The notes beneath the pieces are model-generated. The model ran no database searches, was not told the origin of the DNA, and saw only the letters and a program-made list of their open reading frames with translations. A stretch of DNA of 20,082 bases, from assembly GCA_003599475.1 (NCBI GenBank), contig QZKK01000142.1:1-20082 (forward strand), read 5' to 3'. Shown piece after piece: positions 2,045 through 18,341 of this stretch. Source of the DNA: Desulfobacteraceae bacterium (lineage in GTDB: Bacteria > Desulfobacterota > Desulfobacteria > Desulfobacterales > SURF-15). The translations under genes were made by a program, and so were the position numbers. How positions within the stretch are numbered: position 1 is the stretch's first letter; the number at the start of each line of letters is the position of its first letter.

Positions 2045-2086
2045 TTTAGAGTTTAGATTTTTGATTTGAGATTCTTAATTGTCATT
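2045..2086. repeat. heptamer-period degenerate array (TTTAGAT type)
   Basis: Six consecutive 7-bp words with the theme TTTAGAT/TTTTGAT/TTGAGAT, degrading to the right. It lies directly upstream of the DUF6125-like start and overlaps its leader. No matching inverted arm is visible nearby. Confidence 0.55.
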
Positions 2087-2148
2087 CTCTGCGCCTCCGC
2101 CCCTCGACAAGCTCTGGGCTGTGAGCCCTGTCGAACAGCGTCTCCGCG
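2086..2148. repeat. octamer-period array (TCTCTGCG type) interrupted by hairpin
   Basis: An 8-bp word array of the type TCTCTGCG/TCTCCGCG is visible at 2086-2100 and again at 2138-2148. The 37 bp between them carry a hairpin. Removing the middle part would restore a nearly continuous octamer run, which suggests an insertion. Confidence 0.55.
2104..2134. repeat. REP-like hairpin
   Basis: Inverted arms TCGACA and TGTCGA, extended inward by GCTC and GAGC, enclose a short GC-rich loop. The sequence resembles the common intergenic palindromes built on TCGACA-GCTC found in many bacterial genomes. It sits inside the octamer array. Confidence 0.6.
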
Positions 2149-2247
2149 TGAGAAAAGCAGAGGGAATCGGTTCCCGACCTAAAGCCGTTAGCGCAAGTCA
2201 GGTGTCGATGTCAAGATGCTTCACCCGTCTTCCCCCCCTTTCTATCC

Positions 2248-2276
2248 TTGACAAAGTGCGGATGTTTACCTATATG
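2248..2276 (+). promoter_or_regulatory. sigma-70 promoter for mlaEFDC operon
   Basis: A perfect TTGACA -35 box (2248-2253), a 17-bp spacer and TATATG as -10 (2271-2276). The predicted start is near 2283, giving about 50 nt of leader before the mlaE ATG. This is the best promoter match in the window. Confidence 0.7.
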
Positions 2277-2333
2277 CTTGACCATAAAAGGAAATTTTTA
2301 CCGGAGTGATGGAAAGAGCGGCAGGGCTAAACG

Positions 2334-3140
2334 ATGAAGTCTTCCGATTCCATTTTGAAATCGTCTCTTGGCGCTCTGGGCCGATGGGCGCTGACCCTCT
2401 TCCAGGAGGCCGGAAAAATCGCCCTGTTTTTCTTTCAGGCGTTTCTTCTGATCTTTTCACTTCCGTTTCAGCTCACGAAAATCGTCCATCAGATATTTTT
2501 TATCGGCACCAAGTCTCTGCTTGTCATTTGTTTGACCGGGACTTTTTCCGGTATGGTCTTGGGTCTTCAGGGATATTATACGCTCGTTCAATTCGGATCC
2601 GAGGGGCTTCTCGGGGCTGCCGTCGCCCTTTCCCTGGTTCGGGAACTGGGGCCCGTGCTGACGGCCATCATGGTGGTGGGTCGCGCAGGATCGGCAATGG
2701 CCGCCGAAATCGGGATCATGAGAATTTCCGAACAGATCGATGCCCTCGAAACCATGGATATCGATCCGATCCGATTTCTGGTCAGCCCGAGGATGGCCGC
2801 CTCCCTTTTCAGCTTTCCTCTGTTGACGGCGGTTTTTGACGTTATCGGCATCTTCGGCGGATATGTGTCCGGGTCCCTGCTGCTCCAGATGGATCGAGGA
2901 ACTTACTTTTCCCGGGTGGAAACCGGAGTCACCATGACGGACATCAACGGCGGATTCATCAAATCGATCGCATTTGCTCTCCTGGTGGCGACCGTCTGCT
3001 GCTATCAGGGATACTTCACGCACACCCGGGCGGAAGGTTTCGGAGCAAAGGGCGTGAGTCTTTCGACCACTTCGGCGGTGGTGATGTCTTGCGTGCTGAT
3101 ACTGATTGCAGATTATATACTGACATCCTTTTTACTTTGA
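2334..3140 (+). CDS. mlaE: MlaE-family phospholipid ABC transporter permease
   Basis: 268 aa, the usual length for a permease without a STAS extension. Several long hydrophobic segments are visible, at about 28-48, 60-82, 155-180, 205-232 and 245-268. The family core appears as S-L-V-R-E-L-G-P-V-L-T-A-I, then V-G-R-A-G-S-A-M-A-A-E-I-G, then E-Q-I-D-A-L...D-P-I-R-F-L. In the Mla complex two copies form the inner-membrane channel, powered by MlaF and capped by MlaD. It is the first gene after a strong promoter, and its stop is 6 bp before mlaF. The second mlaE at the right end is closely similar over the shared region. Confidence 0.93.
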   Translation: MKSSDSILKSSLGALGRWALTLFQEAGKIALFFFQAFLLIFSLPFQLTKIVHQIFFIGTKSLLVICLTGTFSGMVLGLQGYYTLVQFGSEGLLGAAVALSLVRELGPVLTAIMVVGRAGSAMAAEIGIMRISEQIDALETMDIDPIRFLVSPRMAASLFSFPLLTAVFDVIGIFGGYVSGSLLLQMDRGTYFSRVETGVTMTDINGGFIKSIAFALLVATVCCYQGYFTHTRAEGFGAKGVSLSTTSAVVMSCVLILIADYILTSFLL

Positions 3141-3146
3141 TTCCCG

Positions 3147-4358
3147 ATGAAAGAACCATTCATACAGCTTGAAAACGTTTCCAAAAGGCTTGGGAACTCT
3201 CAGATCCTCAGCGACACCCGCCTGGACATCTACAGGGGCGAAATCACCACGATCATCGGAAAGAGCGGGGTGGGCAAAAGCGTACTGCTGAAACACATTA
3301 TCGGGCTGATGGAGCCGGATTCAGGCTGTGTGCGGTTCCAGGGGCGGCCGTTGTCGGCAATGAAAAAACCCGAGCGCAAGGCCCTCAGGCGCAAAATCAG
3401 CTATATGTTTCAGGGCAATGCGCTTTTTGATTCCATGACGGTATATGAGAACATCGCCCTTCCGTTGAAGGAAAGGACCCAGATGTCGGATCTGGAGATC
3501 CGGGAAAAGGTAAAGGAACAGCTTCGCAGGCTAGACATCCGGCAGATCGAAGACAATTATCCTTCTCAGATTTCAGGCGGGATGAAAAAGCGGGTTGCGC
3601 TGGCCAGGGCCCTTGTCACGGGCCCCGAGGTTGTCCTTTTCGATGAGCCCACGACAGGACTGGATCCGATTCGTAAGAGTGCGGTACACCATCTGATTTC
3701 GGATTTTCAAAGAAAATTCGGTTTCACCGGCGTTATCGTCAGCCATGAAATTCCGGATATTTTCTATATTTCTCAAAGAATCGCCATGCTCAATGAGGGC
3801 CGCATCCAATTCGAAGGCACCCCCGAGGAAATCCAGCGGGTATCGGACCCCGTGGTGCAGGAGTTTGTTCAAGGCCTTGAAAGCACCCGGGGCGAGCTGA
3901 CCGGCATGTCGGCTCTCCCTCTGGTCCAAAGGCGGTACGGAGAGGGGCTGTCATGGCTCACCCGGCGCGCTCTTCCTTTTTCAATCATCATTCTGCGTCT
4001 GGAGAACCTGGATGAGATCACCGCAGCCGCCGGACACACCCTGGGGCTTACGCTGCTGATCAATTTCGCAGATCAGGTCGAGAATCGCCTGCGCATCACC
4101 GACACCTGTATCCGTCATGGATTCAATACCGTCATGCTGATGCTGCCGGATACAAACATCGGCCAGGCCCGGATGATCTGCTCGAAGCTGGCCGAAAACA
4201 TCACCGGACGGGATATCATCCAGTCGACCCCTTACGATGGATTCAAGATCGAAGTCGGTGCAGGAATCATCGAGGTTGAGGAAAACAGCGAATTTGAAAG
4301 GCTGATCGCCGATGCCGCATCGGCAAAAACCCTGCATTTCGAATTCCGTCACGATTAA
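3147..4358 (+). CDS. mlaF: MlaF-family ABC ATPase fused to degenerate GGDEF-like domain
   Basis: 403 aa, about 140-150 residues longer than a standard MlaF. The ATPase has Walker A GKSGVGKS (38-45), signature ISGGMKKR (142-149), Walker B VVLFDEP (162-168) and switch histidine H200, so it should be active in driving MlaE. Residues 250-403 are extra. They follow the order of a GGDEF domain: LTG start (251), L-E-N-L-D-E strand (285-290), then R-H-G-F-N-T-V-M-L-M-L-P (323-334) where R-x-G-G-D-E-F-x-x-x-L-P is expected. The catalytic signature is lost, so diguanylate cyclase activity is not expected; a regulatory or nucleotide-sensing role is inference. No Shine-Dalgarno is evident before the ATG, so translation is probably coupled to mlaE 6 bp upstream. 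Confidence 0.92.
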   Translation: MKEPFIQLENVSKRLGNSQILSDTRLDIYRGEITTIIGKSGVGKSVLLKHIIGLMEPDSGCVRFQGRPLSAMKKPERKALRRKISYMFQGNALFDSMTVYENIALPLKERTQMSDLEIREKVKEQLRRLDIRQIEDNYPSQISGGMKKRVALARALVTGPEVVLFDEPTTGLDPIRKSAVHHLISDFQRKFGFTGVIVSHEIPDIFYISQRIAMLNEGRIQFEGTPEEIQRVSDPVVQEFVQGLESTRGELTGMSALPLVQRRYGEGLSWLTRRALPFSIIILRLENLDEITAAAGHTLGLTLLINFADQVENRLRITDTCIRHGFNTVMLMLPDTNIGQARMICSKLAENITGRDIIQSTPYDGFKIEVGAGIIEVEENSEFERLIADAASAKTLHFEFRHD

Positions 4359-4369
4359 TGGAGGTTTCA

Positions 4370-4819
4370 ATGAAGCGATCCTCGGTAGAAGTGTGGGTCG
4401 GCATCTTTGTCATCATCAGTCTTGTCTGTATCGGATATTTATCGATCCGGCTGGGCAAGGTGGAGGTTTTCGGAGACAAGTACTATTCTCTTCATGCCAG
4501 GTTTCAATCCGTTTCCGGGCTGAGGCCGGGGACGCACGTGGAGATGGCCGGCGTCAAGGTCGGACTTGTGGAGAAAGTCGCTTTGGACCCGCAAAAACTG
4601 ATCGCCGTCGTTACACTGAAAATCAGAAGGGACATCCAGTTGACAGACGACGTGATCGCATCGATAAAAACCGCCGGTCTCATCGGAGATAAATATATCA
4701 AACTTTCGCCGGGTGGCTCGGATGTCGAACTGAAACCCGGAGACTACATCACGGAAACGGAGTCCGCGCTCGATATCGAAGAACTCATCAGCAAATACGT
4801 GTTTGGCAAAGTATCCTAG
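4370..4819 (+). CDS. mlaD: MlaD-family MCE-domain lipid transfer protein
   Basis: 149 aa. A single N-terminal membrane anchor (about residues 8-25, W-V-G-I-F-V-I-I...) leads into one MCE domain. Visible family marks are F-Q-S-V-S-G-L-R-P-G-T-H-V-E-M-A-G-V-K-V-G and A-S-I-K-T-A-G-L-I-G-D-K-Y-I-K-L. In the family it forms a periplasmic hexameric ring on MlaE that passes lipid to or from MlaC. I chose the ATG at 4370 because GGAGG lies 5 nt upstream. The ATG at 4358 overlaps the mlaF stop and would place that site inside the gene. The end L-I-S-K-Y-V-F-G-K-V matches the other mlaD copy (17883-18341), pointing to a shared ancestry of the two operons. Confidence 0.93.
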   Translation: MKRSSVEVWVGIFVIISLVCIGYLSIRLGKVEVFGDKYYSLHARFQSVSGLRPGTHVEMAGVKVGLVEKVALDPQKLIAVVTLKIRRDIQLTDDVIASIKTAGLIGDKYIKLSPGGSDVELKPGDYITETESALDIEELISKYVFGKVS

Positions 4820-4858
4820 CAACGGAATGCGAACGATCAGCCATGGCGAGGTAAGCCG

Positions 4859-5596
4859 ATGAATGAGGAAAAGAAAAGATTATCGAAGATCGCTTTCACT
4901 GTTTGCTCGCTTCTGCTTCTGGTTTCGAATGCTTCCGGCTCCAATGACTCTCCCCTCGAAGCGCTCCGGGGCCCGCTCGAGAAAGTCATCGGTCCTTTGA
5001 ATCATCCGGTCTCTACCCTTCAGATCGACTCCGGAGAGGATGCCTGGACCACATTTCACCAGCTTTTCGATTTCAGAGAAATCAGCATGCGCTCGCTTTC
5101 TTCCTATTGGATCGATTTTTCGCTCGGTCAAAGGGAAGAGTTCACCCGTCTTTTTTCACAACTGCTGACCTCGGTCTGCTTGAAAAGAATCCAAGAGGAA
5201 TGCCTGAACAACGTTGTCGCATACCTTTCCCACGAAATGATCTCCGATCGCAGGGCCGTGGTGAAAACGAAGATTATCCGGAAAAACCTTACCGATATCT
5301 CCATTTCATACAGCATGAGAAAACGGGCGAAGGAATGGAAGATCTATGACATCGACATCGAAGGAATCCGACTGATTCACAACTATCGCCTCCAGTTCAG
5401 AAGAATCCTCATGAGGGAAGAGCCGGCCTTTCTCATCGCGTTGCTTCAGGGAAAGATCCGGCAGCAGATCGAGGAGAATGCATCCGGTGAGCGCGTCCCG
5501 GCTGAGAGCCGCTCAACCGATGCGAAGGTCGAGTGGCAGCAATTTGCTCAGAAATGCTTCCTGGCCATCTGGCTGGAAGGAGCGGATCGGAAATGA
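4859..5596 (+). CDS. mlaC: MlaC-family periplasmic lipid carrier, long form
   Basis: 245 aa. A basic start and hydrophobic stretch (about residues 8-27) form a signal peptide. The core matches MlaC: F-D-F-R-E-I-S-M-R-S-L-S-S-Y-W, then L-G-Q-R-E-E-F-T-R-L-F-S-Q-L-L, then K-E-W-K-I-Y-D-I-D-I-E-G-I-R-L-I-H-N-Y-R-L-Q-F. Compared with the 194-aa copy at 190-774, the N-terminal helix region differs. An extra tail of about 40 residues follows the usual end, with no membrane or lipobox signal. GAGGT lies about 7 nt before the ATG. The stop codon TGA is itself the first three bases of a perfect 14-bp tandem duplication. Sequence similarity to the other copy is limited, so this is an older paralogue rather than a recent duplication. 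Confidence 0.88.
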   Translation: MNEEKKRLSKIAFTVCSLLLLVSNASGSNDSPLEALRGPLEKVIGPLNHPVSTLQIDSGEDAWTTFHQLFDFREISMRSLSSYWIDFSLGQREEFTRLFSQLLTSVCLKRIQEECLNNVVAYLSHEMISDRRAVVKTKIIRKNLTDISISYSMRKRAKEWKIYDIDIEGIRLIHNYRLQFRRILMREEPAFLIALLQGKIRQQIEENASGERVPAESRSTDAKVEWQQFAQKCFLAIWLEGADRK

Positions 5597-5621
5597 GCTT
5601 TCAGCTTTGAGCTTTCAGCTT
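5594..5621. repeat. perfect 14-bp tandem duplication (heptamer based)
   Basis: Two exact copies of TGAGCTTTCAGCTT, each made of two related 7-bp words (TGAGCTT, TCAGCTT). The first copy contains the mlaC stop codon. The array fills most of the 32-bp gap to the convergent XRE-cupin gene. Confidence 0.85.
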
Positions 5622-5628
5622 CGGCACT

Positions 5629-6264
5629 CTATCCTTCATAGATGACCGCCAGAATCGTCGCCTGCCCGCTTTCCGCCGATATCAGGTGCGGCACGGTCGA
5701 AAGATAATAGACGCTGTCTCCCGGATTCAACAGAAAAATCTCATCTCCGATTTTCAATCTGGCGATTCCGGTCAGCACGTAGATAAACTCTTCTCCCTCG
5801 TGAACCGAGGTCCCCTCATCCGGCGCCTCTTCGAGTTGAACGATCAGCGCCTCCATATGGCGGCCTTTTACTTCGGGAGCAAGGCTCTTGTAACTGTAAA
5901 CCTGCGTTTTTCCCTTGCGTGAAGTCGACCTGTGGACGATTTTCTGCTCTGTATTGCGAGTGACCGAATAGAGCCGCTCCCCCACTCCCGACACCAGCCG
6001 GGTAAAGGCGCTGTCCAGGGCCTTGGAAAGCTTGATGATCGTGCCCAACTGCGGCTGGATTTGATTGTTTTCGATTCCCGATAGAAAATCGATTTCGAAG
6101 CCGGTCATCCTCGAGACCTCTTCAAGGGATAATCCCTTCTGCTGCCTGAGCGAACGGATTCGTTTTCCCACTTCATCGACGGCCGACCGCTTCTCCTTGG
6201 AAATACTGCCGGTGAGGTCTTCGAAAAAATCTACGTTGATGTGAGGTATCTCCTCTTTCCCCAT
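5629..6264 (-). CDS. XRE-family regulator with C-terminal cupin sensor
   Basis: 211 aa. An XRE-type helix-turn-helix spans about 32-92 (V-G-K-R-I-R-S-L-R-Q-Q-K-G-L-S-L-E-E-V then G-I-E-N-N-Q). A small cupin barrel lies at about 133-211, with H-E-G-E-E-F-I-Y-V-L-T-G (155-166) and N-P-G-D-S-V-Y-Y...P-H. This architecture is that of transcription factors that read a small ligand in the cupin; the ligand here is unknown. An extra 30-residue N-terminal tail is present. AAAGGAG lies 5 nt before the ATG and overlaps the end of the HMG-CoA-lyase-like gene, 13 bp upstream, so it is the last gene of that operon. The likely targets are the two divergent operons around 9679-10027, an inference from context. 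A paralogue lies at 15835. Confidence 0.92.
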   Translation of the reverse strand: MGKEEIPHINVDFFEDLTGSISKEKRSAVDEVGKRIRSLRQQKGLSLEEVSRMTGFEIDFLSGIENNQIQPQLGTIIKLSKALDSAFTRLVSGVGERLYSVTRNTEQKIVHRSTSRKGKTQVYSYKSLAPEVKGRHMEALIVQLEEAPDEGTSVHEGEEFIYVLTGIARLKIGDEIFLLNPGDSVYYLSTVPHLISAESGQATILAVIYEG

Positions 6265-6277
6265 TTGCTTCTCCTTT

Positions 6278-7303: not shown

Positions 7304-7319
7304 TCTGAAGTCTCCTTGC

Positions 7320-7572
7320 AATGTCCAATGTAGAATGTAAAATTTCCAATGATCAAGTCAAATGGTACAGGTCCCGGTATCGAATTTCCGAACCCCCACC
7401 AAGCAACCGCCTGCAACCTGAAAATAAAAATTCCATGGTATTATGTTAATGCCCTTCGATCGGACTCTCAAGCCCCAATCCGGTGCAGAGAGAAGTGTTC
7501 TCCGATTCAGGCCCTGCGTTTTCTTCGTGCTTGGAAATTGGACATTGGAAATTCTGCATTGGACATTTTTCC
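7320..7572. repeat. inverted pair of heptamer arrays (AATGTCC type)
   Basis: The left arm (7320-7361) is built of 7-bp words such as AATGTCC, AATGTAG and AATTTCC. The right arm (7531-7572) is built of TTGGACA and TTGGAAA words, the reverse-complement theme. The outer 17 bases of the arms pair with one mismatch. The pair brackets about 170 bp between the enoyl-CoA hydratase stop and the lyase-like start, and the right arm ends 2 bp before that stop codon. Confidence 0.8.
7334..7361 (-). promoter_or_regulatory. possible internal promoter for lyase-like gene and regulator
   Basis: On the minus strand TTGACT (7361-7356) is followed after 16 bp by TACATT (7339-7334), giving a start near 7327 and a short leader. 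The -10 box falls inside the heptamer array, so this may be chance. Confidence 0.3.
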
Positions 7573-7573
7573 C

Positions 7574-8356: not shown

Positions 8357-8383
8357 GGTTCATCCTCCTTTCTGGAAAGAGCG

Positions 8384-8447
8384 AGAAGGATAGAAGGAAA
8401 GAAGGAAAGAACGAAATATCTTTCTTAACTTCTCAACTTCTTCGCTG
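8384..8447. repeat. octamer-period purine/pyrimidine inverted array
   Basis: Four 8-bp words of the type AGAAGGAA (8384-8415) are followed by a short centre. Pyrimidine octamers of the type CTCAACTT/CTTAACTT then run from 8424 to 8447. The two halves are roughly reverse complements and could form a long, imperfect RNA hairpin upstream of enoyl-CoA hydratase. Confidence 0.7.
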
Positions 8448-8450
8448 CCC

Positions 8451-8526
8451 TCCGACCTCTGACCTCCGACCTCTGTCTCCGACCTCCGACTTCCGACCTC
8501 TGTCTTCCGACCTCTGTCTTCTGGTT
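8451..8526. repeat. heptamer-period array (TCCGACC/TCTGTCT)
   Basis: About eleven successive words follow the pattern TCCGACC, TCTGACC or TCTGTCT, with one 6-bp word. The array starts 3 bp after the octamer array and runs to within 4 bp of the acyl-CoA dehydrogenase stop codon. Confidence 0.85.
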
Positions 8527-8529
8527 CTT

Positions 8530-9678: not shown

Positions 9679-9745
9679 TGAAACCTCCTCTCCGGAAACA
9701 GGGGGGCCAGGAATTGCGGCTGCAAGGGTGGATCCAGTCGAAATC

Positions 9746-9775
9746 AGCATATCCAAGCAGGATAAATCTTGTCAA
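9746..9775 (-). promoter_or_regulatory. sigma-70-like promoter for acyl-CoA dehydrogenase operon
   Basis: On the minus strand a perfect TTGACA (9775-9770) is followed after 18 bp by TATGCT (9751-9746). The predicted start is near 9739, about 60 nt before the TTG start codon. This also argues against the longer frame that would start at 9756, inside the promoter. Confidence 0.6.
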
Positions 9776-9875
9776 CAGGTTTTGCAAAGGCGGAGGGTTG
9801 GAAGTAGTCCTTTCTTCAAAGCTGCTAACAAGTTTAAATAATTGGCGATATCATGACCTCTTACGGATTGGACTC

Positions 9876-9904
9876 TTGATTTTTTCATCGGTTCTATATA
9901 TGAA
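9876..9904 (+). promoter_or_regulatory. possible icmF promoter
   Basis: TTGATT (9876-9881), a 17-bp spacer and TATGAA (9899-9904), each matching consensus at four of six positions. It would give a leader of about 115 nt containing the dyad at 9948-9981. Confidence 0.35.
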
Positions 9905-9947
9905 CTGTAAATTGCAGGCAAGATGACCTATACTTGAGGCATTCAAG

Positions 9948-9981
9948 GGCACCGGCGGGTTCCTCTCAACCGGCGGATGCC
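9948..9981. promoter_or_regulatory. 14-bp imperfect dyad in icmF leader
   Basis: The arms GGCACCGGCGGGTT and AACCGGCGGATGCC are reverse complements at 11 of 14 positions around a 6-bp centre. It could be an operator for one of the XRE-cupin regulators or a leader hairpin. The related word CCGGCGG is also a near direct repeat, so the element could be read either way. Confidence 0.4.
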
Positions 9982-10027
9982 CGATACCGGATACCTCACA
10001 GCAGCCATTCACACGACAGGAGGAGCC

Positions 10028-13000
10028 ATGCAAGCCGACACGGCGGGTTATCGACCCGCGCATCAGATTCGAGTCGTAACGGCAACGTCTCTGTTCGACG
10101 GCCATGATGCCTCCATCAACATCATGCGGCGGATCCTGCAGGACAGCGGCGCCGAAGTCATCCACCTGGGACACAACCGATCGGCTCAGGAAATCGTCGA
10201 TGCCGCCATCGAAGAAGACGTTCAGGGTATCGGTATATCCAGTTATCAGGGAGGCCACATCGAGTTTTTCAAATATATCGTCGACCTGCTCAGGGAAAAA
10301 AAAGCCGATCACATCCGGGTCTTCGGCGGGGGAGGCGGCGTCATCATCCCGTCGGAGGTCCGGGAGCTCGAATCATACGGCGTAGCCAAAATCTACTCGC
10401 CCGAAGACGGCGCCCGCATCGGTCTGCAGGGCATCATCGATCATATGCTTCGGGAAATGGATTTTTCGACCGTTTCAGACCTCCGCTTCGATTTCTCACG
10501 GCTCTCTCCTTCAAATAAGGGGATGGTGGCCAATCTGATCACGGCCGTCGAACAGGCAAAGATCGAAGAAAACGGAAACCTGGCCCGGATCCGGTCGGAA
10601 CTGGCCAAAAGAATCGCCGACCGGAGCGCTCCGATTCCGATCATCGGGATAACGGGCACAGGGGGCTCAGGAAAGTCTTCCATTACAGACGAACTCATCA
10701 CCCGGCTGCTGCTGGATATGGAGGATCTGACCGTCGGAATCGTCACGTGCGATCCTTCCCGCCGGAAGACCGGCGGGGCGCTTCTCGGCGATCGGATCCG
10801 TATGAATGCCATCGGCAATTCCCGGATCTACATGAGATCGCTGGCTACACGGCAATCCCGCACGGAGGTCTCCGACGCATTGTCCGATGCCATCGATGTT
10901 TTGAAAGGGGCGGGATTCGACCTGATCCTTGCGGAGACTGCAGGCATCGGCCAAGGGGATTCAACCGTTGCCGATATTGCCGATGTTTGCGTATACGTCA
11001 TGACAGGCGATTTCGGGGCGGCATCACAGCTTGAAAAAATCGATATGCTCGACTATGCGGATCTTGTTGCCGTCAACAAGTTCGAAAAAAGGGGGGGAGA
11101 AGATGCGGTGCGGGATGTCCGAAAACAGGTCCAGCGAAACCGGAAGGCCTGGAGCCGGTCCCCGGAGGATATGCCGGTATTCGGCACTATCGCTTCGAAA
11201 TTCCACGACGACGGAGTAACCGCTCTCTATCATGCACTGCTCGACACGGTTTTCGAAAAAACCGGGGTGCGGCTTCATTCCTCTCTGAACCGCCCTCCGG
11301 GAAAGGTGTCGACCTCCAATGCCGTCATCATTCCGGCGGCACGAATACGGTATCTTTCGGAGATTGCCGAAACCGTGCGCCGATATCATCGCCTGACGGC
11401 TTCGCAAGCCGATTCGGTTCGGGCCGTGTGGCATCTGAAGGAAAGCCTGGAAGCCCTCGACCAAAACCGGTCCGGGGATACCGAAACACTCCTACCCCGC
11501 CTGAAAGAAGAGATTCGAAAGACGGAAAGCCAAATCGAGCCGGAAACACGGCGGGTTCTCAAGGAGTGGGAAGAGATTGAAAAGGATTATGCCGGGGACG
11601 AGGTCGTCTACCGGGTCAGAGAGCGGGAAATCCGGGTGCCGCTTTTCACCGAATCGCTTTCCCACACCCGGATTCCCAAAATCGCACTGCCTAAATTCAA
11701 GGATCCGGGGGAGATCTACCGGTGGCTCCGGGAAGAAAACGTACCCGGTAAGTTTCCTTTTACCGCCGGAGTCTTTCCGCTTAGGCGCACCGATGAGCAT
11801 CCGACCAGAATGTTTGCCGGTGAAGGGGATCCGGCCCGCACGAACCGGCGGTTCAAGATGCTCTCGGCCGATTCCGAAGCCAAACGCCTGTCGACTGCTT
11901 TCGACTCGGTGACCCTCTACGGGCATGACCCGGAAACCCAACCGGATGTCTACGGAAAAGTCGGCACCTCGGGAGTCAGTATCTGCACTCTGGACGATGT
12001 CAGAGTCCTTTACGGCGGCTTCGACCTCTGCTCACCGAATACGTCGGTTTCCATGACCATCAACGGCCCCGCCCCCATCATCCTCGCCATGTTTCTCAAT
12101 GCCGCAGTCGACCAGCAGCAGGATCGATTCAAGCAGGAGACCGGTCGCAACCCCGGTCCGGATGAAGCCGAAAAGATTCGGACCGACGTGTTGTCGAATG
12201 TCCGCGGCACGGTTCAGGCCGACATCCTGAAGGAAGACCAGGGGCAGAACACCTGCATCTTCTCGATCGATTTTTCGTTGAAGATGATGGGGGACATCCA
12301 GCAGTATTTCATCGATCGGAAAGTCCGCAACTTCTATTCCGTCTCCATTTCCGGATACCACATCGCCGAAGCCGGCGCCAACCCGATCACCCAGCTTGCG
12401 CTCACCCTGGCAAACGGCTTTACCTATGTCGAGTACTACCTTTCCAGGGGAATGCCGGTGGACAGTTTCGCTCCGAACCTATCCTTTTTCTTTTCAAACG
12501 GAATGGATCCCGAATACACGGTGATCGGCCGGGTGGCCCGGCGCATCTGGGCGATCGCCATGCGGGAAATATACAATGGGTCGGATCGTTCCCAGATGCT
12601 CAAATACCACATCCAGACATCGGGACGATCGCTTCATGCCCAGGACATTCAGTTCAACGATGTGCGGACCACCCTCCAGGCGCTCTGCGCCATCTACGAC
12701 AACTGCAACAGCCTCCATACCAATGCCTTCGACGAAGCCATCACCACACCCAGCAGGGAATCGGTTCGGCGGGCCCTGGCCATCCAGCTCATCATCAACA
12801 ACGAATGGGGGATGAGCAGGACGGAAAACGTCAACCAGGGTAGCTTTATCGTGGAAGAGCTGACGCGTCTTGTGGAGGAGGCGGTTCTCGTGGAATTCGA
12901 TCGTATCACCGAACGCGGCGGGGTTCTTGGGGCGATGGAAACAGGGTATCAGCGCAGCCGGATTCAGGAGGAATCGATCTACTACGAGAGACTCAAGCAC

Positions 13001-13309
13001 GAGGGAAAGCTTCCCATCATCGGGGTCAATACCTTCCGCGATCCGGACGCAGGGGATGGAGAACTCAGCGAATCGATCGAGCTGGCCAGAGCGACCGAAG
13101 CCGAAAAGCGATCCCAGCTTCAGAGGCTGGCCGATTTCAAAAAAAGGAACGAAAAGCAGGCCCCCTCCGCCCTGAAGCGGCTCCAGCAGACAGCCCTGTC
13201 GGGGGGAAATGTTTTCGAAGAACTCATGCAGACCGTTAAGTACTGTTCGCTGGGGCAAATCACCCAGGCGCTCTTTGCGGTGGGGGGAAAGTACCGGCGA
13301 AATATGTGA
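10028..13309 (+). CDS. icmF: fused isobutyryl-CoA mutase IcmF
   Basis: 1093 aa, full length for IcmF. This adenosylcobalamin enzyme interconverts isobutyryl-CoA and n-butyryl-CoA and carries its own G-protein chaperone. The order is B12 domain (about 10-150, F-D-G-H-D-A-S with the cobalt-ligand His26, then H-L-G-H-N-R-S), GTPase (P-loop G-T-G-G-S-G-K-S-S near 210-218, N-K-F-E at 350-353) and mutase barrel (about 560-1093). Active-site Phe596 (R-M-F-A-G-E-G) and Gln740 (G-Q-N-T-C-I-F) align with a constant offset of two to F598/Q742 that I recall for the Geobacillus enzyme. That predicts isobutyryl/butyryl rather than methylmalonyl or pivalyl specificity. AGGAGG lies 5 nt before the ATG at 10028; the upstream frame to 9977 runs through the leader dyad and is not used. 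Confidence 0.97.
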
Positions 13310-13314
13310 ATAGT

Positions 13315-13394
13315 GCTGGATGCTTGATACTGGATGCTTGATACTGGGCAACATCCAGGATCCAGAACCCAGCATCCAGTATCCAGCATCAAAC
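13315..13394. repeat. inverted pair of heptamer arrays (TGGATGC type)
   Basis: The left arm (13315-13349) has five 7-bp words and includes a perfect 14-bp tandem duplication, TGGATGCTTGATAC, at 13317-13344. The right arm (13353-13394) has six words of the type ATCCAGC/ATCCAGT, the reverse-complement theme in the same phase. With only 3 bp between them the arms could form a long hairpin in the icmF-thiolase transcript. Confidence 0.88.
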
Positions 13395-13417
13395 TGAACA
13401 GGAGGAGGAAAGTTCTA

Positions 13418-14593
13418 ATGAAAGAAGCAGTCATTGTGAGCGCTGTCCGGACGCCGCTTGGAAACTTCAACGGTTCCCTGGGTCAAATCGGGGCAACCGA
13501 GCTGGGAGCGGTGGTTGTCAGCGCGGCAATCCAGAGAGCCGGAATCGACAAGAAAGCGGTTGATGAAGTCATCATGGGAAATGTGCTTCCCTGTGGATAC
13601 GGTCAGAATCCCGCCAAACAGGCCGCCGTAAAAGCCGGGCTGCCCTGGGAGGCGGAGTGCCTGACGATCAACAAGGTTTGCGGATCCGCTCTGAAGGCTG
13701 TCATGCTCGCCGCCCAGTCCGTTCAGCTCGGCGATGCCGAGGTTGTGGTCGCCGGCGGAATGGAAAACATGACCATGGCCCCCTACTTTCTGGAAAAAGC
13801 CCGTTTCGGATACCGCCTGGGTCCGGGCGCTCTGCAGGATCATATGGTTCGGGACGGGCTTTGGGATATCGTAAACGATTTTCACATGGGCATTTCAAAC
13901 GAACTCTGCTCGGAAAAGTACGGCATCGGCAGAGAGGAGCAGGACCGCTACGCGGCCAAATCTTATGAGAGAGCCCTCCAGGCCATCCGGTCGGGCCGGT
14001 TCAAGGATGAGATCGTTCCGGTCCCGCTTCCCCAGCGCAAGGGAGGGCCGGCTGCCTTCGAAACCGACGAATGTCCCCGGGAGACCCCGTATGAAACGCT
14101 TTCGAAGATGAAGCCGGCCTTCAAGACAGACGGCCTGACGACCGCCGGAAACGCCTCGATCATCAGCGACGGCGCCGCCGCCGTCGTCGTCATGTCGAAA
14201 GAGAAGGCGGAATCGCTCGGGTGCCGTATCCTTGCCGTCATCGGCGCCCAGGCATCCTCAGGAATCGATATGAAATACGTCCTGGTCGCCCCGATATGGG
14301 CCATTCCGAAGTGCCTGGCCAAAGAAGGAATCGACAAGAAGGATGTGGACCTCTTCGAAATCAACGAGGCGTTCAGCGGCTCTACCGTCGCAGTGCTCAA
14401 AGAGCTCGATCTCAATCCGGATCGGGTCAACGTAAACGGCGGCAGCGTGGCTTTGGGGCATCCGATCGGAGCCAGCGGATGCCGCGTTCTGGTCACCCTC
14501 ATCCACGAGATGATCAAACGGGACAAAAAGACCGGTCTGGCTTCGCTCTGCCTGGGGGGCGGAGAGGCGGTGGCGTTGGTGGTAAAACGGTAG
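13418..14593 (+). CDS. acetyl-CoA acetyltransferase (thiolase II)
   Basis: 391 aa from the ATG at 13418, preceded by GGAGGAGG 9 nt upstream. The longer frame begins within the repeat hairpin and is rejected. The catalytic set is complete: nucleophile Cys88 in K-V-C-G-S-A-L, His348 in A-L-G-H-P-I-G-A-S-G and Cys378 in S-L-C-L-G-G-G. These match the biosynthetic/degradative thiolase II numbering of Zoogloea (C89, H348, C378, from memory). It should split acetoacetyl-CoA with CoA to two acetyl-CoA, the last step of butyrate oxidation, or run in reverse. It lies 108 bp after icmF with a repeat hairpin between and is probably co-transcribed. Chain-length specificity cannot be read with certainty. 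Confidence 0.95.
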   Translation: MKEAVIVSAVRTPLGNFNGSLGQIGATELGAVVVSAAIQRAGIDKKAVDEVIMGNVLPCGYGQNPAKQAAVKAGLPWEAECLTINKVCGSALKAVMLAAQSVQLGDAEVVVAGGMENMTMAPYFLEKARFGYRLGPGALQDHMVRDGLWDIVNDFHMGISNELCSEKYGIGREEQDRYAAKSYERALQAIRSGRFKDEIVPVPLPQRKGGPAAFETDECPRETPYETLSKMKPAFKTDGLTTAGNASIISDGAAAVVVMSKEKAESLGCRILAVIGAQASSGIDMKYVLVAPIWAIPKCLAKEGIDKKDVDLFEINEAFSGSTVAVLKELDLNPDRVNVNGGSVALGHPIGASGCRVLVTLIHEMIKRDKKTGLASLCLGGGEAVALVVKR

Positions 14594-14598
14594 ATACA

Positions 14599-14761
14599 AA
14601 ATTCGAAATCCGAATATCGAAACTCGAAACAAATTCAAATATCAAAATGCCCAAATGAAAAAATCTATTCGCTCAGAATGCTCCCGTGTGTCTGGATCAC
14701 TTTGAATTTTTGGTAATTGGAGATTGTTTCGGATTTCGGATTTCGTGCTTCGGATTTGATT
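14599..14761. repeat. long inverted pair of heptamer arrays (AAATCCG type)
   Basis: The left arm (14599 to about 14656) uses AAATTCG/AAATCCG/AAACTCG words and then drifts into AAATTCAAAT. The right arm (14701-14761) mirrors it: first the AT-rich part, then TTTCGGA words. The mirrored order means the arms are true inverted copies over roughly 58 bp, with a centre of about 45 bp. They fill the spacer between thiolase and 3-hydroxybutyryl-CoA dehydrogenase. Confidence 0.88.
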
Positions 14762-14839
14762 GCAAGATAGATCCAAGAGTTCTAATCCGGGCTCAAGAAC
14801 CAAGTCTTTAATACCCTATAAACATCAGGAGAGGTTCAC

Positions 14840-15688
14840 ATGGAAATCAGGACATTCGGCGTGGTTGGTGCGGGGCAGATGGGAAGCGGAATCGCGCAGG
14901 TCGCGGCCGCAAGCGGGTTTGAAGTCGTCATGCACGATATTTCAGCGGAATTGGTCGAACGAGGGGTTCAGAACATCCGGAAAAACCTCGGCCGGAGCGT
15001 CGAAAAGGGGAGGATGACCGAAGCGGAGCGAGAAATTGTTTCGGGCCGGATCCATACGACGACCGATCTGAAGGGGATGGCCCCTGCCGATTTCATCGTC
15101 GAAGCGGCGACCGAGAATGAACCCGTCAAGTTTCAGATCTTCAAGCAGCTTGATACCGCATGCGGGCCGGATGTCATTCTGGCAACCAATACTTCCTCCA
15201 TCCCTATCGGTCGAATCGCCAGCCAGACCGCACGGCCGGATAAAGTCATCGGGATGCATTTCATGAATCCGGTTCCTGTCATGAAGCTGGTGGAGATCAT
15301 CCGCGCCCTGGCGACTTCGGAGGAGACGTTTAAAACCACCTGGAATCTGGCAACGAAGTTCGGCAAGACACCGGCCGAGGCAAACGACTATCCGGGGTTC
15401 ATATCCAACCGGATCCTGCTTCCCATGATCAACGAGGCTGTCTACTGCCTCTATCACGGGGTGGGAAGCCGCGAAAGCATCGATACCGTCATGAAGCTGG
15501 GAATGAATCATCCGATGGGACCGCTGGCGCTTGCAGATCTCATCGGGCTGGACACCTGCCTTGCCATCATGGAAACGCTTTACGAAGGCTTCAAAGATTC
15601 CAAGTATCGTCCATGCCCGCTTCTGCGGAAGTATGTCGAAGCCGGGTGGCTCGGCAGGAAGACCAAACGCGGGTTCTACGAGTATTAG
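14840..15688 (+). CDS. hbd: 3-hydroxybutyryl-CoA dehydrogenase
   Basis: 282 aa, the single-function bacterial length. The Rossmann motif G-A-G-Q-M-G-S-G (10-17) binds NAD(H). Catalytic residues are in place: S119 in N-T-S-S, H140 in G-M-H-F-M-N-P, E152 in K-L-V-E-I-I and N190 in F-I-S-N-R, the usual set for this family. The C-terminal dimerisation domain has N-E-A...[13 protein letters not shown] and ends [11 protein letters not shown]. It oxidises 3-hydroxybutyryl-CoA to acetoacetyl-CoA between the hydratase and thiolase encoded nearby. AGGAGAGG lies 5 nt before the ATG. The 246-bp gap before it is filled by inverted heptamer arrays, so it may have separate or attenuated expression. Confidence 0.96.
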
Positions 15689-15706
15689 AAAGATGCGACA
15701 ACTCAG

Positions 15707-15793
15707 CCACCAAGTCACAAAGGCACAAAGAAGAATATGAAGGACAAATCTTGTCGAGATTGGTTAAGCCTTCGTGTCTTCGTGCCTTCGTGG
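15707..15793. repeat. inverted pair of octamer arrays (CCTTCGTG type)
   Basis: The left arm (15707-15732) has words CCACCAAG, TCACAAAG and GCACAAAG. The right arm (15769-15793) has CCTTCGTG, TCTTCGTG and CCTTCGTG, the reverse-complement theme. A perfect small hairpin, GACAA-atc-TTGTC (15743-15755), lies near the centre. Confidence 0.85.
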
Positions 15794-15834
15794 CAGAACG
15801 GCTAGGATAAGATGCGAGATGAACAGGAGCGATC

Positions 15835-16386
15835 ATGTCGAAAAAGAAAGCGGGAGCCGTTCAAGCGGTCGGCAAGCGGATCAAAAGCGTCCGTGAAGAA
15901 AAGAAACTGACTCTGGACTGGATGGCCAATGAAACCGGCTATTCCATCGACTATTTGAAAAAGATCGAATCCGGAAAAGAAATCCCGCCGGTCGGCACCC
16001 TCTTGACCATTTCCCGCGCTTTGGATCTCGATTCCGGTTTTTTCCTGCGGGAACAGGAATCGAATCTGAGCAAGCGGATCAAGGCCTATACCCAAAGAAC
16101 CGAAAACTATGCCTACACCACCTTGACACCGGGTGCGGAAAACAAGCATCTGAAGGCATTCCGGGTGACGGTGGAAGCCATGGAGGAGCATACCGGAGTC
16201 GGCTATCTTCACGAGGGGGAAGAGTTCGTCTATGTTTTATCGGGGCAAATCGAAGTGACGGTGGGAGATCATGTCAACAGACTCGGAGCCGGAGAATCCC
16301 TTCATTTCAATTCCGGAATCCGGCACAAGCTGAGCAATATCGGCAATGAAAAATCGGAGCTCCTGGTGGTCATTTACAATTCGTAA
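15835..16386 (+). CDS. XRE-family regulator with C-terminal cupin sensor (second copy)
   Basis: 183 aa. The helix-turn-helix spans about 11-71 (V-G-K-R-I-K-S-V-R-E-E-K-K-L-T-L-D then K-K-I-E-S-G-K-E-I-P-P-V-G-T-L). The cupin lies at about 105-182, with H-E-G-E-E-F-V-Y-V-L-S-G (126-137) and G-A-G-E-S-L-H-F...R-H-K-L. It shares the H-E-G-E-E-F-x-Y-V-L-x-G core with the copy at 5629-6264 but lacks that protein's N-terminal tail. A CAGGAG ribosome site lies about 6 nt upstream. It sits between hbd and the second acyl-CoA dehydrogenase, each gap filled by repeat arrays. It probably controls this arm of the cluster, perhaps in response to an acyl-CoA or acid, which is inference. Confidence 0.92.
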   Translation: MSKKKAGAVQAVGKRIKSVREEKKLTLDWMANETGYSIDYLKKIESGKEIPPVGTLLTISRALDLDSGFFLREQESNLSKRIKAYTQRTENYAYTTLTPGAENKHLKAFRVTVEAMEEHTGVGYLHEGEEFVYVLSGQIEVTVGDHVNRLGAGESLHFNSGIRHKLSNIGNEKSELLVVIYNS

Positions 16387-16389
16387 ACC

Positions 16390-16494
16390 GTCAAATAGTT
16401 GATTTGTCGAATAGTTAGATCGTCAAATGGTTGAATAGTCAAAAAGTGAACGGGGTTTCCCAAATAAACGAATAATCGAATCAACGAATCAACG
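16390..16494. repeat. 16-bp and 8-bp period arrays abutting a start codon
   Basis: The left part (16390-16451) has 16-bp units starting GTCAAATAGTTG/GTCGAATAGTTA, three full and one partial. The right part (16463-16494) has four 8-bp words (AATAAACG, AATAATCG, then AATCAACG twice), roughly the reverse-complement theme. The last word ends at 16494, directly against the ATG of the next gene. Confidence 0.85.
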
Positions 16495-17649
16495 ATGTCT
16501 TTCCATCTGACTCACGAACAATTGATGATCCAGGCGATGGTCCGGGAGTTTTCGCGGAAGGTGCTTTCTCCTACCAGTGCGGAACGGGACCGGACCAAGC
16601 AATTTCCGGCGGAAAACATCGAAGCCATGGGCGAGCTGGGGCTCATGGGCATGATGATTCCTCCGGAATATGGCGGTGAAGGCGCGGATACGATCAGCTA
16701 TGTGCTCGCGCTGATGGAAATCGCCTACGCCTGTGCGGCCACGGCGGTCGTGATGTCGGTTCAGAATTCCATCGTCTGTGAGAGCATCTTTCGCTTCGGA
16801 AACGAGGAGCAGAAAAAGCGTTTTCTGAGGCCGCTTGCCTCCGGAAAACGGATCGGGGCTTTCGCCCTGACAGAGCCCGATGCCGGTTCCGATCCGCTCA
16901 GCCAGTCCGCCTCAGCCGTCCGGGACGGAGACTTTTATTTATTGAATGGTACGAAGCGCTTCATTACTTCCGGTAAAACCGCCGGCATCGTTGTGGTAAC
17001 GGCCAAGACCGATGAGTCCCAGCGCCACAAGGGAATCAGCGCCTTTGTTCTCGATAAGGACACCCCGGGGTTGACCACCGGTGCGCTGGAAGACAAAATG
17101 GGGCTCTGCGCATCGGACACCTGCGATTTGATTTTTGAAGACTGCCGCATTCCCTCGAAAAACCGTCTTGGAAACGAAGGAGACGGATTCAAGATCGCCA
17201 TGAGCTGCCTGGACGGAGGAAGGATCGGAATCGCCGCCCAGTCGGTGGGGGTGGCACAGGCGGCCCTGGATGCATCCATCAAATATGCCCAGAAGAGGAG
17301 CCAGTTCGGCCAGCCGATCTCAAAGTTCCAGGGGATTCGTTTCATCATCGCCGACATGGCGACCGAAATCGAAGCGGCCAGGCAGTTGACCCTGGCAGCG
17401 GCAACCCTCAAGGACAGAGGAGAAAAATTTACGATCCAGGCTTCGATGGCAAAGCTGTTTGCCTCTGAAATGGTCAATCGGGTCACGGCCAAGGCGCTCC
17501 AGATTCACGGAGGGTACGGCTTCATCAAAGACTATGCCGTAGAGCGGTTCTACAGAGACGCCCGCGTCTTTACCATCTACGAGGGAACCTCGGAGATCCA
17601 GCGCATCGTCATCTCCAATCACATCCTGAAGGACAAGCGACAGCCATAG
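16495..17649 (+). CDS. acyl-CoA dehydrogenase (second copy)
   Basis: 384 aa with the full three-domain layout: N-terminal helices, middle domain with F-A-L-T-E-P-D-A-G-S-D, then R-S-Q-F-G-Q-P-I and Q-I-H-G-G-Y-G-F-I-K-D-Y. The catalytic base is E363 in I-Y-E-G-T-S-E-I-Q-R, typical of butyryl-CoA and other short-chain dehydrogenases. It is clearly a different subfamily member from the copy at 8530-9678, which has G-E-G-T. The two may divide butyryl- and isobutyryl- or 2-methyl-branched substrates; this is inference. The ATG is immediately preceded by an octamer array and no Shine-Dalgarno is visible. The protein starts in register with the family here, so I keep this start. It converges with mlaD. 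Confidence 0.94.
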   Translation: MSFHLTHEQLMIQAMVREFSRKVLSPTSAERDRTKQFPAENIEAMGELGLMGMMIPPEYGGEGADTISYVLALMEIAYACAATAVVMSVQNSIVCESIFRFGNEEQKKRFLRPLASGKRIGAFALTEPDAGSDPLSQSASAVRDGDFYLLNGTKRFITSGKTAGIVVVTAKTDESQRHKGISAFVLDKDTPGLTTGALEDKMGLCASDTCDLIFEDCRIPSKNRLGNEGDGFKIAMSCLDGGRIGIAAQSVGVAQAALDASIKYAQKRSQFGQPISKFQGIRFIIADMATEIEAARQLTLAAATLKDRGEKFTIQASMAKLFASEMVNRVTAKALQIHGGYGFIKDYAVERFYRDARVFTIYEGTSEIQRIVISNHILKDKRQP

Positions 17650-17732
17650 TGATAGTGTTCAGCGTTCAGTGTTCAGGAAAGAAAAGCCGTTTTCTTAGCT
17701 CTGCTACCTTGTTTAAAACTACATGAAAATCG

Positions 17733-17793
17733 CCACTAAGGCTCTAAGGCACTAAGGTCATATCCCTTCTTTGTGTCTTCGTGTCTTTGTGGC
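17733..17793. repeat. inner inverted pair of octamer arrays (CCACTAAG/TCTTTGTG)
   Basis: Left arm 17733-17757 has three octamers ending CTAAG. Right arm 17766-17793 has three octamers of the type TCTTTGTG/TCTTCGTG, a diverged reverse complement. The centre is only about 8 bp. The element is the same type as the one at 15707-15793. Confidence 0.8.
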
Positions 17794-17805
17794 AAAATTT
17801 TTTTT
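17733..17805 (+). terminator. possible terminator of the icmF-acd operon
   Basis: The octamer hairpin is followed by GGCAAAA and then eight T residues (17798-17805). A long but imperfect stem plus a U-tract could stop transcription between convergent genes. The stem is AT/GU-rich and the T run starts several bases after it, so I rate this low. Confidence 0.35.
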
Positions 17806-17882
17806 CATAGTTTCTTATTCGATCAAACTGGTCGCATCGGGGGGCCAGCGGCTGGGCTGAACACTGAACACTGAACACTCAA

Positions 17883-18341
17883 CTACTCCTTCTTCTTGAC
17901 CTCCCCGAATGCATACTTGCTGATCAGATCTCCGATGTCCACGGGGGCTTCCGTTTCGGTGATCGTTCCTCCAGCCTTCAGCAGCTCGCCGCCGCCTCCG
18001 GGATTGATTTGAACATAGCGGTCTCCGATCAAGCCGGCCGTCTTGATCGAGGCGATGGCATCGTCATAGATTTTGATCCCTTCCTCTATCCTCATGATAA
18101 CGACTGCCTGCTGTTTTTCCTGATCCATTTGGAATCCGCTCACATGCCCGACCTGCAGGCCCAGCATCTCCACCGGATTGCCCACCCTCAGGCCGGATAC
18201 GGTATTGAATCGCGCAAAAAGCCGATAGGTATCGTCGGCAAGGAACGGCACATTGCCCAGCTTGACCGTGAGATATCCGACACCCAACAGACCGATCAGC
18301 ACAAAGATTCCAGCAATCGTCTCGTTGTGATACTTCTTCAT
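17883..18341 (-). CDS. mlaD: MlaD-family MCE-domain lipid transfer protein (second copy)
   Basis: 152 aa. The N-terminal membrane anchor I-A-G-I-F-V-L-I-G-L-L-G-V-G-Y (about 9-23) is followed by a single MCE domain with F-N-T-V-S-G-L-R-V-G-N-P-V-E-M-L-G-L-Q-V-G and A-S-I-K-T-A-G-L-I-G-D-R-Y-V-Q-I. It ends L-I-S-K-Y-A-F-G-E-V plus a lysine-rich tail. GGAGG lies 4 nt before the ATG at 18341 and overlaps the mlaF stop, so the longer frame to 18398 is rejected. The gene order mlaE-mlaF-mlaD repeats that at 2334-4819, but no mlaC follows; the strand converges with acyl-CoA dehydrogenase instead. It may share an MlaC encoded elsewhere. Confidence 0.93.
   Translation of the reverse strand: MKKYHNETIAGIFVLIGLLGVGYLTVKLGNVPFLADDTYRLFARFNTVSGLRVGNPVEMLGLQVGHVSGFQMDQEKQQAVVIMRIEEGIKIYDDAIASIKTAGLIGDRYVQINPGGGGELLKAGGTITETEAPVDIGDLISKYAFGEVKKKE

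Follow-up and report, generated by a model that had tools for sequence, protein, structure and literature searches.

Tandem 7- and 8-bp word arrays in Desulfobacterota spacers as probable ends of small dispersed elements

Tandem word arrays in the window

The window, a 20,082-nucleotide stretch of a Desulfobacteraceae genome (contig QZKK01000142.1), carries mla operons and other genes separated by spacers rich in tandem arrays of 7- and 8-bp words. Ten of these spacers (1,815 bp) contained 10 runs at lag 7 and 7 runs at lag 8 with a run score of ≥9, compared with means of 0.04 and 0.02 runs, respectively, after dinucleotide shuffling (300 shuffles per lag; means 0.02–0.04, maximum 1), and no run of this score was detected at lags 5, 6, 9 and 10 in the same spacers. 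This result bore out the initial annotation, which placed 7/8-bp arrays in most spacers. The confirmed arrays were located at 2043–2073, 5594–5621, 7319–7351/7531–7567, 8384–8416/8422–8442, 8449–8523, 13316–13347/13352–13390, 14599–14630/14727–14757, 15703–15730/15768–15797, 16390–16447/16463–16495, 17654–17676/17857–17883 and 17734–17757/17768–17791. The spacer at 9757–9976 was array-free and had no significant arms (100 shuffles), and the window had no Rfam match at gathering scores. The annotated absence of arrays from the mla operons is true but near-trivial, because the spacers there are 39 bp or shorter by the ORF list.

Significant inverted arms (p 0.00–0.01 of 100 shuffles) were found in 5/10 spacers, or 5/9 of those bearing arrays (7322–7573, 13310–13420, 14594–14839, 15689–15834 and 17650–17882). 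The description of the arrays as usually forming inverted pairs holds for these five but not for the array-bearing spacers at 2040–2333, 5597–5628, 8357–8529 and 16387–16494, where the arms were not significant in 100 shuffles; counted array by array, 6 of the 14 window arrays lacked a partner at p 0.01. In the relatives and the window together, inverted array pairs resembling the terminal inverted repeats (TIRs) of MITEs numbered 147.

Strand is given below only where one was assigned. A solo heptamer array of ATTTTAG-type words (2043–2073), which has no inverted partner, is followed by a short octamer pair, TTCTCTGCGCCTCCG and CGTCTCCGCGTGAGA (2085–2153), enclosing a palindrome (2104–2135) whose pattern was unique to this locus among the loci compared; the octamer array annotated at 2086 is by eye this pair, with only ~2 units per side. 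Another solo array, consisting of two perfect 14-mers TGAGCTTTCAGCTT (5594–5621, + strand), overlaps a stop codon and resembles arrays in other genomes of the phylum (query positions about 23–60). A heptamer arm with ATTGGAC/ATTGGAA words (7320–7350; inverted score 18.5, spacer p 0.00) has its complement 186 bp away at 7537–7567, and these arms found matches in 3/297 genomes (G606, G437 and G401). At 8384–8442, a purine octamer array (8384–8416) faces 8422–8442, with a non-significant arm test. The adjacent long solo heptamer array of CCTCYGA words (8449–8523) ends 6 bp from a stop codon and had 76–85% matches over about 50–80 bp in other genomes, and the palindromic element at 13316–13390 (GATNCTGGATNCTTG words, arms 13319–13347 and 13362–13390, 14-bp loop) had whole or half copies in 18/297 genomes.

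Further downstream, the octamer element at 15703–15797, with significant spacer arms reading TCAGCCACCAAGTCACAAAGG.. and ..CTTCGTGCCTTCGTGGCAGA, lies between two copies of the 9-bp direct repeat AAGATGCGA (15690–15698 and 15809–15817, both + strand), a weak candidate target duplication and the only one in the window, for which we roughly estimate a ~3% chance over five window pairs. Its layout was also present in G002 and in G011; one of those copies corresponds to an empty site in G001. Two facing arrays of 16-bp/8-bp words (16390–16495) gave p 0.18 and p 0.03 for their arms in two tests. The outer heptamer arms of the locus at 17654–17879 (17654–17676 and 17857–17879, TGAACAC words; spacer p 0.00) contain a nested octamer pair, CACTAAGG and CTTTGTG (17736–17791; p ≤0.01), followed by a dispersed hairpin segment GATCAAACTGG..GGCCAGCGGCTGGGCTGAA (17800–17870, + strand) that continues straight into the heptamers. 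As initially stated, almost no two loci of the window share a word, but in other genomes the same words turn up again.

Dispersed copies, empty sites and direct repeats in relatives

The segment at 14598–14757 (+ strand) is a full-length member of a dispersed family of ~160-bp elements, with a CGAA core in its left arm and a TTCG core in its right arm, the latter lying at 14727–14757 and not at 14701 as first annotated. An alignment of 11 copies from 8 genomes left 60 of the 160 window positions invariant, with the CGAA/TTCG cores conserved at 7-bp steps. The element was matched in 23/24 genomes (22 of the 24 had been picked for an earlier match), with 2–68 matches each in 22 of them; G001 had no match, plasmids had none for 14594–14760, and an exact 24-mer was present in three viral contigs. 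The interior of the last locus (17793–17870) was dispersed as well, occurring in 14/194 genomes, and by eye ~25 of its 30 listed loci, among which three rows were misplaced, ran directly into heptamers. The initial view that the arrays are not copies of one mobile element is therefore wrong for at least these two loci, 14598–14757 and 17654–17879, and doubtful for three or four others; these loci are members of several dispersed families. Multiple dispersed copies, a characteristic of MITEs, were thus present, as counted in genomes other than that of the window.

The period of 7/8 bp and the two-arm layout recurred in the spacers of relatives, contrary to the confinement to this contig that the initial annotation had named as its test. 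A composite query had matches in 77/297 genomes, part of which may reflect low-complexity similarity because the reversed composite still matched 33/297; just two candidates were scored per genome in these searches and in the 297-genome search for the 7320–7567 arms and the 13316–13390 element. The families were distributed patchily between genomes, and the word differed between families inside one genome. Unit number was independent for each arm (left 2–4, right 0–6, r −0.27; 23 of the 33 matches were retained), a pattern of inverted ends with variable-number tandem repeats as in Foldback-type elements.

Comparison of the congeneric species G001 and G011 revealed an array in one or both species at 14/29 orthologous spacers, and at 11 of these 14 the array was found in one species only, providing empty sites of the kind expected for MITEs; one ortholog pair differed by 7 bp of array. 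One precise insertion consisted of a 163-bp octamer element with the TIR GTAACTATTCAGCCAC and the direct repeat ATGTTTTT, at a site that is empty in G001. Across the 147 inverted array pairs, 18 were flanked by an 8-bp direct repeat, compared with a null mean of 4.2 and maximum of 11 in 200 runs. This bulk excess is to be discounted for seven of the 19 candidate duplications listed, which are not true duplications because five share one GTAAAAAGT-like sequence and two resemble array words.

An unbiased scan for target-site duplications (TSDs) combined with TIRs was little above the shifted control (TSD 8, 94 vs 72; TSD 4, 1015 vs 806), and its excess at TSD 7 (1211 vs 247) came mostly from 946 GGGGC cases; therefore, a GTAA-anchored test was used instead. 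Exact 8-bp direct repeats flanked 10 of 14,231 GTAA..TTAC pairs compared with 0.67 per control shift (maximum 3), and five of these ten pairs hold detected arrays, with the same words below threshold in a sixth. Target-site duplication was thus seen for the GTAA..TTAC families; in the 14598–14757 family, no clear duplication was found by eye. GTAA ends with an 8-bp duplication are the hallmark of IS66; five to six array elements in G001/G011 had both, and the window had none.

Explanations for the arrays

We consider it probable that small non-autonomous MITE/foldback-like elements of about 75–400 bp, belonging to many families, have the paired arrays as their inverted ends, and that in about half of the window gaps the arrays are ends of such scattered elements rather than gap-specific features. 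This reading draws on properties observed for at least one family, namely dispersion, presence or absence between species, some flanking direct repeats, independent arm units, conserved cores and no sign of arm covariation. Each end would be a row of 7-/8-bp words that keep their core constant and vary in the linker letters. Each word would serve as one recognition site for a mobilising protein, with the two ends presenting it in opposite orientations. Copies would insert into spacers, after which the number of words per arm would change one unit at a time via slippage or unequal exchange, and loss of one arm or of the interior would produce the solo arrays. The binding protein, one mode of movement for all families and such an origin of every window array are what we infer.

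A non-exhaustive search covering IS66, Y1 and one candidate unit found no autonomous copy or transposase for the array elements. IS66 was rejected as the driver: its transposase had no match in 8/16 genomes (one match in G001, none in G011), and its ends were not found at 12/22 scanned loci (nine with nothing, three with masked N stretches only). The candidate unit, 6 kb between outward arms in G525, held a 1,554-aa ORF and ordinary-looking ORFs and was judged to be two separate elements. That the arrays are REP/REPIN-like elements, mobilised by a Y1 (RAYT) transposase via single-stranded hairpins, is highly improbable. The 17800–17870 segment does form a REP-like hairpin beside heptamers, and Y1 matches numbered 1–19 (median 9) in ten genomes judged array-rich and 1–4 in five judged poor, a grouping made by judgement, with density measured for G001 and G178 only. 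However, G072, with few arrays seen, had 12 Y1 matches, and arrays were found no more than 600 bp away at just 6 of the 29 Y1 loci assessed (30 taken from 107 matches, one without gene call), unlike the flanking of the RAYT gene by elements that characterizes REP/REPIN systems. The 8-bp direct repeats at array elements are, to our knowledge, not expected from Y1 transposition.

RNA hairpins that stabilise mRNA or attenuate or terminate transcription, with their pairing kept by selection, are an improbable explanation, even though three of the four window pairs tested folded better than shuffles (z −5.7 for 13316–13390, −5.0, and −4.5 for 8380–8445 despite its non-significant arms; z −1.2 only for 16388–16494). 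Arrays lay within 8 bp of stop codons more often than at random in G001 (19.8% of 207 sides vs 11.8%), G178 (43.5% of 23 vs 15.4%) and G011 (22.9% of 48 vs 15.3%), a moderate enrichment with no counterpart at start codons in these genomes. In the window, however, the share of array sides close to a stop barely exceeded the random level (66.7% of 9 sides vs 57.2%), and proximity to starts was seen as well (40% of 5 sides vs 11%). Arm lengths were unequal, partners were missing in the four spacers named above, and none of 27 predicted pairs showed a compensatory change, although 20 of them never vary and are hence silent. Selective maintenance of the hairpins, as initially proposed, found no support because in two families the two arms of a copy resembled each other no more closely than they did the arms of other copies (similarity 15.13 vs 15.18, p 0.54; 19.21 vs 21.09, p 0.9995). 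The arrays may nevertheless have a secondary effect on mRNA.

Template switching, which combined with replication slippage would let arrays arise de novo in every spacer without any movement of elements, should make the two arms of a copy alike, and this likeness was not seen in these two families. Higher-order periods of 14 bp and 16 bp and length shifts in whole units point to slippage as the likely process altering unit number. That slippage produced the entire layout is improbable: identical word order and interior in other genera refute it as the sole cause, and the precise insertions with flanking direct repeats argue against it. We regard it as unlikely that the arrays are chromosomal binding sites, set in opposing pairs, for IHF/HU or another nucleoid or global regulator protein. 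This was proposed for Geobacter metallireducens, where the published description includes tandem octa-/heptanucleotide sites that form pairs across the two strands with varying separation (PMC2700814). The conserved cores and variable linkers would suit such sites, but the 11 of 14 array-bearing orthologous spacers occupied in one species only, the patchy families and the family-to-family word differences within one genome do not.

The mobility reading, if correct, explains the spacer differences between sister species and could bring both the G. metallireducens regulator sites and comparable heptamer reports into line with mobility; many overlooked Desulfobacterota spacer repeats would then be traces of a large, still-moving group of elements with an unusual end design. 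We give a small chance to a wider version, a phylum-wide foldback-like superfamily recurring across genera, in which one kind of protein reads 7-/8-bp steps and the word varies by family. If so, recognition would be modular or reprogrammable, with constant step size and variable word. The question raised is which protein reads 7–8-bp words in tandem.

Comparison with known repeats

The STRR sequences of heterocystous cyanobacteria are mostly intergenic tandem heptamers with the word CCCCART. They differ from the window arrays in having essentially one word, almost always in direct orientation, and tandem CCCCART did not occur in the window. The TAACTGA repeats of Beggiatoaceae are likewise tandem heptamers, mostly intergenic, but are described as essentially one word that is almost always direct, with 169 direct sets and one indirect set in one genome (PMC4679880); no tandem TAACTGA was present in the window. 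BrickBuilt MITEs of Porphyromonas gingivalis share an intergenic, dispersed location and internal tandem repeats, but their repeats are 23 bp long and internal, flanked by small inverted ends, and that account reports one species (PMC4596501).

Closer to the window arrays are the G. metallireducens "predicted global regulator binding sites", presented as classes 1–3 with 16–48 sequences per class (PMC2700814). They too are tandem 7/8-bp repeats with several classes per genome, and classes 1 and 2 share the opposite-strand pairing at variable distance; unlike our reading, the description interprets them as possible IHF/HU sites (PMC2700814). Their consensus words GTTGCTYN, TCTCCGTS and MTYCTGA gave 0 exact tandem matches in the window and, at ≤2 mismatches, 1, 0 and 4 matches as raw counts without a chance level.

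Drosophila Foldback/Galileo elements are described as having inverted ends with internal tandem repeats whose number is independent at each end, as well as many copies without transposase, and the repeats are proposed there to act as secondary transposase-binding sites (PMC3573991). In contrast to the window elements, they are eukaryotic, their repeats are much longer, at about 210 bp for the F group, and the parent transposase is known (PMC3573991). By analogy, and with no claim of membership, which would call for a related transposase of the P superfamily, the array elements may work as Foldback/Galileo elements do.

Tandem arrays in the window and in related genomes

Most window spacers were filled by tandem repeats with periods of 7 and 8 bp (also 14 and 16). 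Ten spacers (1,815 bp) contained 10 lag-7, 7 lag-8, 10 lag-14 and 3 lag-16 runs and none at lags 5, 6, 9 and 10, with chance-level means of 0.02–0.04 in 300 shuffles, bearing out the period-7/8 arrays that the initial annotation had reported for most spacers. Its claim of inverted pairing held for five of the nine array-bearing spacers, where inverted arms exceeded the shuffles, and not for the remaining four; in a separate partner test, 8 of 14 window arrays had an inverted partner at p ≤0.01. The region around 9974–9995 had been described as array-free, but a heptamer repeat of CGGATAC type, weak at a TRF score of 30, lies there, at the start of the 9977–13309 gene. A short octamer pair encloses a 32-bp palindrome at 2104–2135, TCGACAAGCTC..TGTCGAAC, an arrangement that resembles insertion of one repeat into another; no second match to this pattern was detected among the loci searched.

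Judged from its nearest relatives, the window DNA is Desulfobacterales-like. Pfam matches among the 10 proteins scanned comprised MlaC, DUF6125, two HTH-cupin regulators, HMGL-like, enoyl-CoA hydratase, two acyl-CoA dehydrogenases, thiolase and 3-hydroxyacyl-CoA dehydrogenase. The two regulators (5629–6264 and 15835–16386) are separate genes of one acyl-CoA gene cluster. The best relatives of the 1,110-aa protein encoded at 9977–13309, which we take to be IcmF-type, were ≤77% identical.

Scanning relatives' spacers for the same periodicity revealed arrays beyond this contig. Per 10 kb of spacer sequence, the window contained 43.7 lag-7 and 37.4 lag-8 runs; the corresponding densities were 8.0 and 2.9 for the Eth-SRB1 genome G001 (400 kb; a run in 53/244 spacers), 4.5 and 1.4 for G178 (360 kb; 24/232) and 1.9 each for G072 (40 kb; 2/25). 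In coding DNA the rate at these lags was ≤0.4 outside the window and 1.1 within it. The refuting condition set in the initial annotation (spacers genome-wide with no more 7/8 periodicity or arm complementarity than random sequence, or arrays confined to this contig) thus does not hold. No lag-7 or lag-8 run was detected in 71 spacers from seven Geobacter-like and gammaproteobacterial loci, and 120 spacers from nine Bacilli loci yielded two runs, both lag 8. Arrays are distributed patchily across Desulfobacterota: lag-7 and lag-8 runs were absent from 29 of 39 loci assigned to this class, which includes one locus titled Aminicenantes (some short Desulfobacterales loci being classed as "other"). 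Significant inverted partners were found for 30/84 arrays in G001, 17/41 in G178, 0/2 in G072 and 12/20 in five further loci.

Dispersed array-bearing families

A composite query built from 14 window arrays had matches in 77/297 Desulfobacterota genomes vs 33/297 for its reversal, and in 3/34 genomes that were reached via mostly other-phylum loci. Another composite, of the heptamer arms at 7320–7350/7537–7567 and the palindromic element at 13316–13390, matched 21/297 genomes (raw counts: palindrome 18, arms 3). With a spacer region of L009 (from G001) as query, 104 and 100 matches were found in two congeneric genomes. Window 17793–17870, from the interior of the heptamer-armed locus at 17654–17879, matched 14/194 Desulfobacterales genomes, and in ~25 of the 30 loci displayed, as judged by eye (three rows positioned off the match), its conserved hairpin passed directly into heptamers (e.g. 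CTGAACA/CTGACAC/CTGAAAC).

Window 14594–14765, spanning the dispersed element at 14598–14757, matched 23/24 genomes, which is not a prevalence estimate, since 22 of the 24 (all but two reference genomes) had been preselected by a composite match. Many copies ran end to end (query ~5–164), with up to 68 matches per genome, one in G545 and none in G001. Alignment of 11 copies from 8 genomes showed 60/160 window positions invariant; CG dinucleotides occupy 7-8, 14-15, 21-22 and 28-29 on the left and 133-134, 140-141, 147-148 and 154-155 on the right, almost all of them fully or nearly invariant.

An exact 24-mer of the right arm also occurred in three IMG/VR contigs (L340 3643–3666, L342 1503–1526, L341 3743–3766), and L340 and L342 shared identical flanks and a whole palindromic element. 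At locus L394 (G525), a 14598-type element at 2923–3052 approximately fills the gap between two predicted ORFs, its arms touching the ORF ends. In genome G654 (L373–L387), a similar palindrome is nested in a larger conserved element in ~14/15 copies (by eye), with ends near CCCTTAG and GGGTTAGG; core identities of 89.7–94.2% to one copy were measured, and the copies represent a recent burst, favourable material for examining TSDs.

Insertion sites and the role of pairing

G001 and G011 are congeneric, and segments beside 37 collinear junctions were 77–95% identical, mostly near 90%. Among 29 orthologous spacers, 15 were array-free in both genomes, 7 carried arrays in G001 only, 4 in G011 only and 3 in both (two homologous in place, one with different arrays). 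Clean insertions included a 163-bp octamer element (GTAAC ends, 8-bp direct repeat) for which the G001 site is single and empty; a 404-bp octamer element (TSD TAAAAAAT) was also absent from G001, but its site was not clean. Flanking 8-bp repeats accompanied 18/147 inverted pairs vs 4.2 on average in permutations (max 11), a count to be discounted for seven of the 19 pairs listed with somewhat wider flanks, five sharing one GTAAAAAGT-like flank and two resembling array words. Exact 8-bp repeats flanked 10/14,231 GTAA..TTAC pairs vs 0.67 per control shift (max 3). A small GTAACTTCTCAA-ended element with no detected arrays (G001 C40:683635–683894) has 8-bp flanking repeats TTAACACT, a heptamer-type word, and may have inserted into an array.

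The initial annotation had listed mRNA stabilisation or attenuation hairpins among possible roles. Strong RNA folds were predicted for 3/4 window pairs tested, and arrays lay nearer stop codons than random, and not nearer starts, in G001, G011 and G178 (the stop-side excess in the window was small), making side effects on transcripts plausible. Arm comparisons argued against selected hairpins: none of 27 predicted pairs in the 11-copy alignment changed on both sides, the test being silent for the 20 that never vary, and arms of the same copy were no more alike than those of different copies, both in the conserved-interior family (15.13 vs 15.18, p 0.54) and in the CGAA family (19.21 vs 21.09, p 0.9995; 14 copies). 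In the former, unit number varied between copies and between the two arms of one copy (22 rows displayed, one a chance match); it ranged over 2–4 on the left and 0–6 on the right (r −0.27) in the 23 copies left after 10 of 33 pattern matches had been dropped for lack of the words. From these alignments, each arm's sequence, not pairing, seems to be under selection or common descent.

Putative mechanism and known systems

The words would serve as repeated recognition sites at inverted ends, and slippage would alter their number. As mobilising proteins, IS66 and Y1 transposases fit poorly. Among the matches listed (titles and abstract openings, subscription papers mostly outside), none was found to describe mobile elements across Desulfobacterota whose ends are 7/8-bp arrays. 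The closest precedent seen in print is Geobacter metallireducens, where paired tandem octa-/heptanucleotide sites are listed as regulator sites and insertion sequences adjoining class 1 sites are noted (PMC2700814). Tandem repeats at Galileo ends have been proposed as repeated recognition sites (PMC3573991), a role that the 7/8-bp words may share.
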